64,000 bases of DNA from Psychroflexus salarius. GTDB lineage: Bacteria; Bacteroidota; Bacteroidia; Flavobacteriales; Flavobacteriaceae. Within the stretch, counting starts at the first letter, position 1. Each line of letters opens with the position of its first letter. Below the pieces are notes generated by a model, which was given only the letters and a program-made list of their open reading frames with translations, had not been told where the DNA came from and did no database searches. Of this stretch, positions 31,822 through 40,295 are shown in pieces. The stretch lies in NCBI RefSeq assembly GCF_900129035.1, contig NZ_FQTW01000002.1, forward strand, positions 62,001 to 126,000. The letters run 5' to 3'. The position numbers and the translations under genes were made by a program.

Positions 31822-32829
31822 ATGTATAATTCAACGATAAAAGGACTCGGTAAATACTTACCTGAACAAGTTGTTACTAATGAGGATTTATCTAAAATCA
31901 TGGACACTAGTGATGAATGGATTCAGGAAAGAACAGGAATTAAAGAGCGACGCCACATCAAGAAAAACGCAGGTGACTCTACTGCAACAATGGGCGCCAA
32001 AGCAGCTAAAATTGCAATAGAACGTGCTGGAATTGATAAAAGTGACATTGATTTAATTATTTTTGCCACCTTAAGCCCGGATTATTATTTTCCAGGTTGT
32101 GGTGTTCAAGTACAAGATATTTTAGAAATAGAAACCTGTCCTGCCTTAGATATTAGAAACCAATGCAGTGGATTTATTTACGGGATTTCGGTGGCTGACC
32201 AGTTTATTAAAACAGGCATGTATAAAAATATTTTATTGATTGGAAGTGAAAATCATAGTGGTGGTTTAGATTTTACAACACGAGGAAGAAATGTTTCGGT
32301 AATATTTGGAGATGGTGCTGGTGCTGCAATAATTAGCAGAAGTGAAAGTAAAGGTAAAATTTTATCGACACACTTACATTCAGAAGGTAAGTTTGCTAAA
32401 GAACTTTCCCTGATTGGTCCATCAACCGAATATTGGGTTCCACAAATTATTAAAGAAAACCCTCAAGAAAACATTCCTTATTATCCCTACATGAATGGTC
32501 AATTGGTTTTTAAAAACGCGGTAGTTCGATTTGCTGAAGTTATAAACGAAGGACTTCAAGCGAATAACTTAAAAGCTTCAGATATCGATATGTTTATTCC
32601 ACATCAAGCTAATTTAAGAATTTCTCAATTTATTCAGAAAAAATTCAAATTGAATGATGACCAGGTTTACAATAATATTCAGAAATATGGCAATACCACT
32701 GCCGCTTCTATACCTATTGCTTTAACTGAAGCATGGGAAAATGGAAAAATTAATTCTGGAGATTTAGTTGTTTTAGCAGCTTTTGGAAGCGGCTTTACTT
32801 GGGGAAGTGCTTTAATTCGTTGGGTTTAA
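31822..32829 (+). CDS. fabH: 3-oxoacyl-ACP synthase III (FabH-type)
   Basis: Condenses an acyl-CoA primer with malonyl-ACP to begin fatty acid synthesis. 335 residues with the Cys-His-Asn triad: C115 in IRNQCSGFIYG, His in FIPHQANLRI and Asn in YGNTTAASIP. In Bacteroidota this enzyme class is expected to accept branched primers such as isobutyryl-CoA, which IcmF (17473) could supply; that link is inference. Monocistronic with a terminator. Another ketoacyl synthase III subgroup (secondary metabolism) is possible, since genomes of this group often hold several paralogs. Confidence 0.9.
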   Translation: MYNSTIKGLGKYLPEQVVTNEDLSKIMDTSDEWIQERTGIKERRHIKKNAGDSTATMGAKAAKIAIERAGIDKSDIDLIIFATLSPDYYFPGCGVQVQDILEIETCPALDIRNQCSGFIYGISVADQFIKTGMYKNILLIGSENHSGGLDFTTRGRNVSVIFGDGAGAAIISRSESKGKILSTHLHSEGKFAKELSLIGPSTEYWVPQIIKENPQENIPYYPYMNGQLVFKNAVVRFAEVINEGLQANNLKASDIDMFIPHQANLRISQFIQKKFKLNDDQVYNNIQKYGNTTAASIPIALTEAWENGKINSGDLVVLAAFGSGFTWGSALIRWV

Positions 32830-32836
32830 AATAAAA

Positions 32837-32862
32837 AAAGGGATGATAAAAACCATCCCTTT
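32837..32862. terminator. Terminator between fabH and the hemoglobin-like lipoprotein gene
   Basis: Nine-base-pair stem (32837-32845 with 32854-32862) with A and T flanks, positioned between converging genes. Confidence 0.75.
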
Positions 32863-32887
32863 AATCAAAAACAACAAAAACAAAACA

Positions 32888-33475
32888 TTATTGGGGATCT
32901 TGAACAATAGGCTCTCTAATTGATTCAAGTACTTCAACAACCTCATTAATTATTTCTGTGTCAGTTACACCATTTAAGGCAGCTGCTTGACCTACATAGC
33001 CAACAAATTTATCATAGTCTGCATTATCAGCTTTAGCGCCCATTCTAGGATTTTGTTCTGGATCATGTGCTGCTACCATGTTTAAACCGTTGTAAGTATT
33101 CGTATCTCCACCACCTGTATTGGCTGAGAAAAAATCGGTTAGATTATCGCTTAAAACTGCAACGTTTGTATTATTACCAGCAGATACTTCAGCTAAAATA
33201 GGCGCAAAATAAGTTCCTAAATTACCTTCTTCTTCAGCTATGACATCAGATACAATTAAAACAATAGTAGAATCAACAACTGAGCGATAACTTAGTCTTC
33301 CTTGCTCTATCATTTTATTAGGATCATTTGGATCGGTTACCATGGTAGTTCCTCCTAGTTTATCGTAAAGCGTTTGCTCTGTTACGGTATTGTTAGCATC
33401 GTCGTCATCGCTACAAGCAGTAAACATGCCTGCAACAGCTAGTAAGGTTAATAAACTTTTTTTGTAGTTAGCCAT
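32888..33475 (-). CDS. Lipoprotein with group-1 truncated-hemoglobin-like domain
   Basis: 195 residues. A lipoprotein signal ends at C21 (FTAC), followed by SDDDD, an acidic start typical of surface-exposed lipoproteins in this group. The body follows the truncated hemoglobin pattern: TLYDKLGG (35-42), VVDS (66-69), LGTYFAP (86-92), then FFSANTGGGDTNTYNGLNMVAAHD with His137 at the proximal heme-ligand position, and YDKFVGYV...NGVTDTEI. His137 is the only histidine in the protein. The usual Phe-Tyr pair of helix B is not present. A TTG start at 33481 is in frame, but ATG 33475 is preferred. Assignment is by my alignment from memory. Confidence 0.65.
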   Translation of the reverse strand: MANYKKSLLTLLAVAGMFTACSDDDDANNTVTEQTLYDKLGGTTMVTDPNDPNKMIEQGRLSYRSVVDSTIVLIVSDVIAEEEGNLGTYFAPILAEVSAGNNTNVAVLSDNLTDFFSANTGGGDTNTYNGLNMVAAHDPEQNPRMGAKADNADYDKFVGYVGQAAALNGVTDTEIINEVVEVLESIREPIVQDPQ

Positions 33476-33498
33476 AATCAAAATATTTAGGATTAATA

Positions 33499-33933
33499 TT
33501 AATTAAAAATTCGTTGGACGCCTTTAGAAAAGTGATAAGCAAAGCTATCTTGATTGACAGGGCAAACTTTTTTCTGTGCAAGACTATCAGGTAATTTATA
33601 TAGTTTAGGATTGAGTTTAGTGTTTACGTCTATGTGGGAAGCTACATCTTGCGATTCTAAATACCGATTATCATGAAAAAAAACTAGAACGCCTGTTTCT
33701 TTATTAATTCTCCAAGACTTAACTGCTGAAAGAGATTTTAATTGCGATTTTATTTGATTTTCTTCATTTCTGTCTAATGAAGTCTCAAAATCTATTCGAC
33801 TAATTTGAAGTGTAGGATTATCTATTGATTCTGGAGTAACGTTTAAGATATGAATTATCAGAACAAAAACCATAATAAAAAGGCTAGCAAAAAGCCCAAT
33901 CAGAGTGCGCTTTAATAACTTTCGTATATTCAT
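33499..33933 (-). CDS. Membrane-anchored protein of unknown function, partner of the hemoglobin-like lipoprotein
   Basis: 144 residues: one N-terminal transmembrane anchor (about 11-29), then an exported domain of about 110 residues. The segment LQISRIDFETSLDRNEENQI ... GVLVFFHDN has a strand-helix-strand-strand look similar to heavy-metal-associated domains but lacks the CxxC pair. A lone cysteine (KVCPVNQDS) lies near the C-terminus. It ends 23 bases before the start of the lipoprotein gene on the same strand, so the two are probably cotranscribed. I do not recognise the family. Confidence 0.6.
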   Translation of the reverse strand: MNIRKLLKRTLIGLFASLFIMVFVLIIHILNVTPESIDNPTLQISRIDFETSLDRNEENQIKSQLKSLSAVKSWRINKETGVLVFFHDNRYLESQDVASHIDVNTKLNPKLYKLPDSLAQKKVCPVNQDSFAYHFSKGVQRIFN

Positions 33934-34021
33934 AAGTTGTGATTTTTTTCTTAACTAATTATATATACGAGTATAATTGCTAGGCGGTTTATTTTTTTTT
34001 ATAATAAACCTATAAAGAAAT

Positions 34022-34054
34022 AAAAAAAGGAGTTAAAATAATATTTAACTCCTT
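34022..34054 (-). terminator. Orphan terminator-like hairpin upstream of the lipoprotein operon
   Basis: Perfect 11-bp stem (34027-34037 with 34044-34054), loop ATAATA, followed by seven T on the minus strand. No minus-strand gene ends here: upstream on that strand is only intergenic sequence and the start of a plus-strand gene. It could attenuate the operon starting at 33933 or end a short RNA. Confidence 0.6.
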
Positions 34055-34196
34055 GATATTTAGATATATTAAATTTATGAAGGCTAATTCAAATAAATTA
34101 ATAAACTTATTTATTAAACGCAAGAAACATTCCTTTGTTACAAGTATTAACAGAGTTTAACATCGGCTAAAACAATTCTTAAATAAATTTGACAGA

Positions 34197-34571
34197 ATGG
34201 AAACAAAACACACAACATTAATTATCGGCGCTACAACTAATCCCAATCGATATGCTTATTTAGCATTAGAAAGTTTAGTAAAGCGTAATTACCCTGTTGT
34301 TGGTGTAGGCTTAAAAGAAGCAGAAATTAACGGCGTAAAAATTCATAAAGACAAAAAAGTATTTTCAGATATTGATACCGTTACACTCTATTTAAGTGCT
34401 AAAAATCAAATTGGTTTTTACGATTATTTACTTCAACTTAACCCAAGACGAGTCATTTTTAATCCTGGCACGCAAAATCCTGAACTAGAAAATTTACTAG
34501 CTAAAAATGATATTAAAGTAGTGCACGCTTGTACCTTAGTCATGCTTAAAACTGGCCAATACAAGTCCTAA
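34197..34571 (+). CDS. CoA-binding domain protein (YccU-like)
   Basis: 124-residue Rossmann-fold protein of the CoA-binding family: LIIGATTNPNRYAYLALESL at the N-terminus, YPVVGVGLKEAEINGVK, then VTLYLSAKNQIGFYDYLLQL and VIFNPGTQNPELENLL, matching the small stand-alone family. Role unknown. Its 3' end overlaps the convergent symporter gene by 36 bases. A TAAATTTG box ends 5 bases before the ATG, so transcription might begin at or near the start codon. Confidence 0.85.
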   Translation: METKHTTLIIGATTNPNRYAYLALESLVKRNYPVVGVGLKEAEINGVKIHKDKKVFSDIDTVTLYLSAKNQIGFYDYLLQLNPRRVIFNPGTQNPELENLLAKNDIKVVHACTLVMLKTGQYKS

Positions 34572-39301: not shown

Positions 39302-40219
39302 TTAATCTACTTCAGGAGAAAAAGTCTCATCTAAATAATCAGGTGTCCCATTGCCATTACTGTCAGGGAAACTAGGTTCTCCTGTTTGTTCATCAATAAT
39401 AATTTCATTTATAGTTAAAACACCATCATTATCATCGTCGTTATCGAGATAATTAGGTGCGGTATCTCCATCGGTATCATCATTATTTAAGCGTCTATCA
39501 TTGTTTACATCTTCCATCCAACTAGGAATACCGTCACGATCATGATCTGATTCATTAGAACGGTAAAGTTGAAATGAAAAAATTATCGGATTATAGGCTC
39601 CTATACCAGAAGTAATTGGCGGTGATGCGAAATAGCCTAAACCTGACGGAATAAAAACAGCTCCAATACCAAAATCATCATTAAAAGTAATAGTTCCATC
39701 TAAGTTTTCATCTAAGCCAGTAGAGCCTCTAAATTCAGGTAAGACTTCATAAAACCCTCTAACGACTTGTGTTAAATCAAACCAAACTGCATTTGGAGAA
39801 ACATCAAAAACTTCACCTTCAAGTGTAAATCCTTCATAAGTAACTAGAGTTGAATCTGCAAATTTTGGCTGGCGTTCTGATGGTGCACCTTCACGAAATT
39901 TTAGATAATAGAGTTCGTACTCAATATCATTATTGACAACTGTTTTAGAGTCTAGCAAATCAGAATCTAGTATCGGTGTTTCGTTAATATTTTCACCGGC
40001 TATAGTATCAAATACAATTCGTTGGTAATTATCATTACTAGGGTTTGTTTCAAATCTATAAAAATGGGTGGCTAAAAAATCTTCAATTTGAGTGGCATTT
40101 TCATCGCGAACTTCGGCTTCATCACGAAGTTCGAGTGTGTTTCCTCCATCGTCATCATCATCACAGCTGATACCAAAAAACAGAACACTTAATAATAATA
40201 AAAAACTAATTCTTTTCAT
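39302..40219 (-). CDS. FKBP-like lipoprotein with acidic calcium-binding-type repeats
   Basis: 305 residues from ATG 40219 (a longer reading to 40240 would bury the signal peptide). The lipid cysteine follows FFGIS and is followed by five aspartates. The middle region matches an FKBP isomerase fold: LVTYEGFTLEGEVFDVS, VRGFYEVLPEF, then GIGAVFIPSGLGYFA. The C-terminal 80 residues are a run of aspartate-rich motifs (DHDRDGIPS, DVNNDRRLNNDDTDGD, DNDDDNDGV, DSNGNGTPDY) like thrombospondin type-3 or dockerin calcium loops. Probably a surface or periplasmic foldase or a binding protein. Confidence 0.78.
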   Translation of the reverse strand: MKRISFLLLLSVLFFGISCDDDDDGGNTLELRDEAEVRDENATQIEDFLATHFYRFETNPSNDNYQRIVFDTIAGENINETPILDSDLLDSKTVVNNDIEYELYYLKFREGAPSERQPKFADSTLVTYEGFTLEGEVFDVSPNAVWFDLTQVVRGFYEVLPEFRGSTGLDENLDGTITFNDDFGIGAVFIPSGLGYFASPPITSGIGAYNPIIFSFQLYRSNESDHDRDGIPSWMEDVNNDRRLNNDDTDGDTAPNYLDNDDDNDGVLTINEIIIDEQTGEPSFPDSNGNGTPDYLDETFSPEVD

Positions 40220-40295
40220 TAACTTTACTTTTGAGTGCAAGATACAATTTTCTTGTATTTTTGTTCAAATTGAACTCTAAATCGTCATTAATATT

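Follow-up and report, generated by a model that had tools for sequence, protein, structure and literature searches.

The window analysed here, a stretch of 64,000 nucleotides from Psychroflexus salarius, carries on its minus strand a gene (32888..33475) for a lipoprotein of 195 amino acids, which sequence, profiles, predicted structure and conservation characterize as an exported truncated hemoglobin (trHb) of the group 1 type. The mechanical ORF call covers 32888-33481 and begins with a TTG start codon, and the globin protein begins with MANYKK. Residues 1-26 (33398..33475, minus strand) comprise the lipoprotein signal peptide with the lipobox cysteine Cys21, followed by the acidic stretch SDDDD. 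According to the alignment and an AF2 model, residues 45-61 (33293..33343, minus strand) form an insertion between helices A and B, which is predicted to be a beta-hairpin and ends in a conserved IE-x-GRL motif. The codon of His137, invariant in the alignment, is located at 33065..33067 on the same strand. Directly upstream of the globin gene and in the same orientation lies a gene (33499..33933) for a protein of 144 amino acids with a single transmembrane (TM) helix and, based on an AF2 model and an alignment, a predicted fold of the heavy-metal-associated (HMA) type without CxxC, in the following called the partner. A terminator-like stem-loop directly 3' of the globin gene (32837..32862, minus strand), a consensus match only, would end the unit formed by the globin and partner genes. 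A promoter scan at the pair yielded five sites compared to a shuffle mean of 6.8 and hence no excess.

Relationship to group 1 truncated hemoglobins

For the analysis of the globin, we used a family of 81 loci, consisting of the window and 80 loci obtained by a pattern-based contig scan (the best 80 of 83 relatives); nearly all of them belong to Flavobacterium and they are not independent of each other. An earlier note, made from the sequence alone, had recognized the protein by its truncated hemoglobin motifs, and all of these (LYDKLGG, GGGDTNTYNGLNMVAAHD, YDKFVGYV and NGVTDTEI) were found in the ORF. That the match goes beyond chance was shown by a profile (A5) of seven trHb1-type sequences, all from outside the insert-bearing family. 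A5 scored the window globin with 34.7 bits, 23.8 of which fell in residues 86-192, compared to 6.4 bits for the best of 2000 shuffles of the mature part. When the comparison was made on equal terms, the mature globin alone reached 32.0 bits versus 5.8 bits for the best shuffle, and the real leader fused to shuffled cores scored up to 5.5 bits. All 81 family members were matched by A5 with 20.8-35.9 bits, and alignment of A5 with a profile of 17 family sequences (A1) by hhalign gave a probability of 97.9 and an E-value of 4.9e-13, with histidine aligned on histidine. The family is furthermore bridged to known globins by the lipoprotein L098, which is matched by PF01152 with an E-value of 1.3e-12 and also by the family profile.

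In an alignment of 20 rows comprising family, bridging and canonical globins (A2), His137 is present in every row and aligns with the F8 histidine of trHb1, that is, with the proximal heme-ligand position to which the earlier note had assigned it. Like His137, Met133 and Gly130 as well as the GG motif are found unchanged all the way from the canonical globins to the window protein. Glycine motifs in the AB and EF regions are a feature of group 1 truncated hemoglobins, and the corresponding residues G41, G42 and G130 are invariant in A2 and G121 nearly so. A search of the PDB with A2 returned group 1 trHbs at about 1e-24, a value that is not independent, since A2 includes canonical rows.

PF01152 showed no match in the window globin, in 17 family members or in six distant members, nor anything in the window organism's own genome; a plain Pfam test would thus have overlooked the globin. 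The complete set of Pfam and NCBIfam models gave nothing useful for the window globin; a weak match to NCBIfam Mfa1 (E 0.0048) was confined to residues 5-34, i.e., the leader and the acidic start, and was rejected. A PDB search with the single sequence found Tetrahymena group 1 truncated hemoglobins with E-values of 0.007-0.013 over residues 101-189. They were outranked by two designed SAKe proteins (residues 103-143 at E 1.7e-4 and residues 120-143 at E 6.8e-4), which we regard as chance or compositional matches, because they were absent from the profile search and from the structure matches shown.

A globin-like predicted structure had been set beforehand as a test of the proposal, and the AF2 model indeed matches trHbs. 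The best model, built from 17 close sequences, had a mean pLDDT of 76.1 (the other four models were weaker, 57-69), and its predicted fold is that of a 2-over-2 globin. The 22 best Foldseek matches of this model were trHb group 1 entries (best E 4e-4), and the VIA comparison with trHb group 1 gave a Z of 15.3 at 1.6-1.7 Å, covering 116 of 116 target residues. Group 2 entries reached at best Z 14.3, about 1 Z lower, a gap so small that the group assignment leans on sequence more than on structure. Judged from sequence and model, the window protein is a globin by three partly independent routes, namely profiles, bridge and structure, and its family is best seen as a diverged offshoot of a known fold and not as something of a new kind. 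Computation gives good support for the globin fold and for the gene coupling described below; that the globin binds heme, and what it does, is inferred.

Conservation and distal pocket

Four residues, Cys21, Leu108, Leu112 and His137, are invariant in all 81 family proteins, and the conservation of His137 among orthologs, which had been named as decisive, extends to the bridging sequences. The globin is under purifying selection, with a dN/dS of 0.049 versus the sister species (G020, L142). The description as a single-histidine protein was correct for the window protein, which contains only His137, but does not hold for the family, where 79 of 82 proteins have two; the second histidine is His89 in 80 of 81 proteins, and a tyrosine (Tyr89) occupies this position in the window protein. 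Similarly, an insertion between the first two helices is present, but it comprises approximately 17 residues (45-61) in the alignment and not 25. Further insertions were found in the C-E and F-G regions (A2).

The Phe-Tyr pair of helix B is gone, as had been noted from the sequence. The B9-B10 positions FY of trHb1 are taken by Thr70 and Ile71, and residue 70 is Thr or Ala in 81/81 family proteins and residue 71 Ile in 79 and Val in two, so that PheB9-TyrB10 does not occur. Together with Leu108 at E7 and Leu112 at E11, Ile71 at B10 gives the window globin a distal pocket that is predicted from the alignment to be apolar. Position B10 was compared across the 26 ORFs that underlie the A2 matches; 14 of them are family members, and leaders were assessed by eye (for L187 the start position is doubtful). 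An Ile, Leu or Val was present in 24 of the 26 ORFs, including Ile or Leu in 10 of the 12 outside the family, and a Tyr in only two, both without a leader peptide. Loss of Tyr B10 thus goes with export in trHb1-type proteins (24/24 here), a rule that is testable across phyla. The passages of PMC4720485 concerned with distal residues describe PheB9-TyrB10 as the commonest, though not universal, pair in trHbs, associate low O2 affinity in clade or group N with Leu at E7, E11 and G8, and give O2 dissociation rates of up to 10^4 s-1 for highly hydrophobic pockets. Taking these rates together with the apolar pocket, the exported forms are predicted to bind O2 poorly. Four of the short exported globins (L115, L117, L122, L127) possess a cysteine pair, C-x-x-T-G-G-P-C, in the E-F region, which perhaps forms a disulfide suited to the envelope.

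Export and surface display

The lipoprotein signal and the acidic start were both confirmed in the sequence, with the lipobox FTAC and the mature start C-SDDDD. Homologs with a lipobox had been suggested as a check, and the lipobox cysteine is invariant (81/81), which supports export of the globin as a lipoprotein. The SDDDD of the window globin exactly matches the consensus for lipoprotein export in B. fragilis given in PMC5080379; in the experiments described there, this consensus displayed a reporter on C. canimorsus cells, albeit less well than the native signal. All 81 family members contain 2-4 acidic residues at positions +2 to +8, and surface display of the globin appears likely from these signals. 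The assumption of the earlier note that globins of this class are normally cytoplasmic is too strict for the phylum, as shorter trHb1-type proteins with leaders (judged by eye) occur elsewhere. A similar acidic start (CDDDDDGG) is found in a neighbouring 312-residue lipoprotein encoded at 39302-40240 (minus strand), which had no Pfam match at E 0.001.

The membrane partner and its linkage to the globin

The earlier account of the locus was incomplete in that the partner gene had been missed. The partner consists of one TM helix followed by the predicted HMA fold. Its AF2 model had a mean pLDDT of 83.1 and a pTM of 0.55, and matched HMA folds with a Foldseek E-value of 1.5e-4 and a Z of 12.3 at 1.5 Å over 72 residues; the score against PF19991 was 18.5 bits and thus below the cut-off of 30. 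Like the domains of ATP7A/B, MerP and CopZ, the partner has a predicted beta-alpha-beta-beta-alpha-beta fold, but unlike these it lacks CxxC and has an N-terminal TM helix, His28 at the membrane edge and a C-terminal Cys-Pro. Six residues of the partner (His28, Arg46, Val84, His87, Cys124 and Pro125) are the same in every one of 63 distinct sequences. In an 11-row alignment reaching other families (A3), all of these except His87 are kept, and none of the 11 rows contains a CxxC. The partner is likewise under purifying selection, with a dN/dS of 0.096 versus the sister species (G020, L142).

The partner gene is located directly upstream of the globin gene in 79 of the 81 loci, 77 of which were recognized by clustering and two (L048, L068) rescued by tblastn. 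With respect to the other two, the sequence of L026 begins just 147 bases ahead of the globin gene, too short a stretch to show a partner, and L069 had no partner match and carries a DUF5777 gene directly upstream of the globin. The gap between the two genes was 15-23 bp in the 77 loci measured. A mirror-tree comparison of globin and partner gave an r of 0.577 (n 19), which was reached in 0 of 5000 permutations; this lends weak support, as shared ancestry alone can produce such a correlation.

To determine the distribution of both genes, we searched 395 genomes of the phylum, scoring the best 8-10 first-look candidates per genome, so that a weak member could escape. The A1 profile matched 18 genomes, 14 of them with insert-bearing members, the window organism's own genome included. 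The match in G245 was a shorter exported globin, and those in G406, G194 and G137 were dropped, because in these larger, unrelated proteins the match was confined to the leader and the N-terminal part. Strong partner matches (E 3.4e-41 or better) coincided precisely with the 14 genomes that have an insert-bearing globin, with none in the other 381, and according to the coordinates the two genes are adjacent in 14 of 14 carriers. Any partner match at all was obtained in 21 of the 395 genomes, the seven additional ones being weak (E 6e-5 or worse) and not counted. No partner match was found in 11 other genomes with trHb1-type globins. The shorter trHb1-type proteins that were aligned lack both the A-B insertion and a partner; this co-occurrence suggests that the insertion could be the docking site of the partner.

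Within the genus, the pair has a patchy distribution. Only G020 among 26 sampled congeners carries a close copy of the globin (93% identical); a match in G014 (L003, E 5e-4), which lies in a frame of 400 aa, was left uncounted. The neighbouring fabH gene is present in 26 of 27 genomes (own included). In two genomes the pair lies between fabH and a CoA-binding gene, and in six congeners the site is empty, with the CoA-binding and symporter genes directly after fabH and 216-249 bases between the aligned ends. This comparison covers two filled and six empty sites, the other 18 genomes with fabH being outside the readable set; it fits either a gain in the window lineage or a precise loss elsewhere. 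Accordingly, the two-gene unit at 32829-34197 of the window appears as a presence/absence cassette within the genus.

Gene neighbourhood

In 61 of the 81 loci the globin is immediately followed downstream by a member of the hemA cluster (Pfam on one cluster member). Members of the hemC, hemD and hemE clusters were found in 26, 23 and 21 loci, respectively, and of a ferrochelatase cluster in 15; the ferrochelatase and hemC examples were identified by Pfam, those of hemD and hemE by eye. The linkage to hem genes is no universal feature, however. The window genome has hemA and ferrochelatase, but its hemE-D-C-A / AraC / histidine kinase / hemH locus is intact and does not contain the pair, and only one (L136) of six loci outside the family shows hemA next to the globin. 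The hem linkage may therefore reflect lineage chance or shared regulation.

Upstream of the pair, 43 of the 81 loci contain a block of genes for YceI (often two), a cytochrome-c-like lipoprotein, a tRNA_anti-like protein and a DUF5777 beta-barrel, for example the Flavobacterium loci L018, L024 and L028. These names derive from cluster examples, and the Pfam match of the cytochrome-c-like protein is below the cut-off. In the window genome, the YceI, tRNA_anti-like and DUF5777 genes lie together on a separate contig (C18; L144) without a globin. No gene of the YceI/cytochrome/DUF5777 block was seen among the about six genes shown on each side at six distant loci, the surroundings of L135-L137 being covered in part. 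We therefore rejected the idea that the block belongs to the unit, which in its minimal form consists of the globin gene and the partner gene.

A pair of genes for an ECF sigma factor and an RskA-type anti-sigma factor (called by Pfam on examples) is located near the globin in 14 of the 81 loci. Among 11 further loci, ECF sigma and anti-sigma genes were found by similarity in L132, L134, L138 and L141, and a sigma gene only in L139. ECF sigma genes beside exported globins, with or without the partner, hint at envelope-stress control.

Possible function of the pair

The globin and its partner probably constitute a putative heme- or gas-handling pair working outside the cytoplasm. Our preferred reading, to which we assign a probability of roughly 0.45, is that the globin is an exported, probably surface-located, trHb1-derived heme protein with a pocket that disfavours O2 and that the partner loads or reduces its heme. 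The globin would descend from a group 1 trHb, be exported via Sec and be lipidated at Cys21, and the SDDDD signal would probably flip it to the outer face of the outer membrane. Heme b would be held through His137. Because the hydrogen-bond donors Tyr-B10 and Gln-E11 are gone (Ile71 and Leu112), a very fast release of O2 is expected, and the protein would be neither an O2 store nor an NO dioxygenase, but more likely a binder of NO or CO or a heme carrier. As Sec exports unfolded chains, the heme must enter the globin outside the cytoplasm. The partner, with its TM anchor, a presumably periplasmic HMA-fold domain, His28 at the membrane edge and Cys124-Pro125, could serve the globin as a dedicated donor of heme or electrons, before or during transit, possibly docking on its beta-hairpin insertion. 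If the globin is at the surface and the partner in the inner membrane, the two would meet only during transit. Against this reading, Cys124-Pro125 could instead bind a metal or form a disulfide, and the shorter exported trHb1-type proteins without a partner indicate that loading need not always involve one.

A more specific proposal concerns the maturation of extracytoplasmic globins, in which the partner would be an inner-membrane HMA-fold factor that inserts heme from a His/Cys-Pro site, with the A-B hairpin as docking element. We consider this rather unlikely. If true, it would provide a hemoglobin with a dedicated heme-loading partner comparable to CcmC/CcmE, the heme relay of cytochrome c maturation.

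The surface export signal of the globin, the recurrent hem neighbours in Flavobacterium and the nearby DUF5777 beta-barrel genes (43/81 loci, Pfam on one cluster member) could also be explained by heme capture, a hemophore-like surface globin taking up environmental heme and the partner relaying it inward or sensing it. This is unlikely in our view, because the recurrent neighbours make heme (hemA, hemC, hemH) and no receptor gene recurs beside the pair, with one large ORF near L132 being receptor-like by eye. Moreover, globins usually bind heme too tightly to act as a shuttle.

Another reading takes the globin for a heme-less globin-fold lipoprotein that would act together with the partner in a structural or signalling role, and the earlier note had likewise considered a non-heme fold. 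The changed distal residues, to which position 89 adds in the window protein, the large insertions and the failure of PF01152 to score the globin would fit this. They are opposed by the invariance of His137, Met133, the GG motif and Gly130 from canonical globins onward and by the low dN/dS of 0.049, which make a non-heme fold less likely and this reading quite improbable. Finally, an envelope redox module, in which the pair and the c-type cytochrome, YceI and DUF5777 proteins would form an NO- or quinone-linked electron branch, draws on the block found upstream of the pair in about half of the family loci, but is hardly probable given the location of the YceI, tRNA_anti-like and DUF5777 genes away from any globin in the window genome and the lack of block genes among those shown around the six distant loci.

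Comparison with known systems

The closest relatives of the globin are the group 1 (N) trHbs (PF01152), such as those of Tetrahymena pyriformis (3aq5-3aq9), M. tuberculosis (trHbN, 1idr), Paramecium (1dlw) and Shewanella benthica (8ugz). Shared features are the 2-over-2 fold (predicted here), the LGG start, the C-terminal helices, the GG motif, Y-x-G in the EF region and an equally spaced pair of Met and F8 His. In contrast to these proteins, the window globin is exported as a lipoprotein, contains the A-B hairpin of about 17 residues and other insertions, lacks Phe-Tyr at B9-B10, has Leu at E7 and E11 and escapes detection by PF01152. With the shorter exported trHb1-type proteins (L098, L115, L117, L122, L127, L128), it has in common a leader (judged by eye), the proximal His, an aliphatic residue at B10 (Ile or Leu there) and an apolar E11. 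These proteins differ from it by the absence of the A-B insertion, by scores above the PF01152 cut-off and by having no partner that was found. Outside the globins, the periplasmic cytochromes c', which bind NO and CO, resemble the window globin in their envelope location and in an apolar distal pocket disfavouring O2, but they are unrelated four-helix bundles with covalent heme c.

Most work on truncated hemoglobins has dealt with cytoplasmic proteins that act as NO dioxygenases or bind O2, and the apolar pocket of the exported lineage, probably at the cell surface, predicts a chemistry unlike that of the cytoplasmic forms. The literature matches listed, from a search of mostly open-access papers, contained no exported or lipid-anchored truncated hemoglobin, and a survey of 2006 describes globins, in the part dealing with this group, as mostly absent from Bacteroidetes/Chlorobi (PMC1457004). 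The element that is new to us is the coupling of the globin to the HMA-fold partner. The one-to-one tie with a membrane-anchored protein would make the pair a candidate two-gene system for heme delivery to extracytoplasmic globins.

Two globin loci are present in F. phragmitis, F. potami and F. defluvii (e.g., L046/L049, L023/L051 and L027/L069). The hemA cluster members of the two settings share a mean identity of 77%, as if partner, globin and hemA had been duplicated together.
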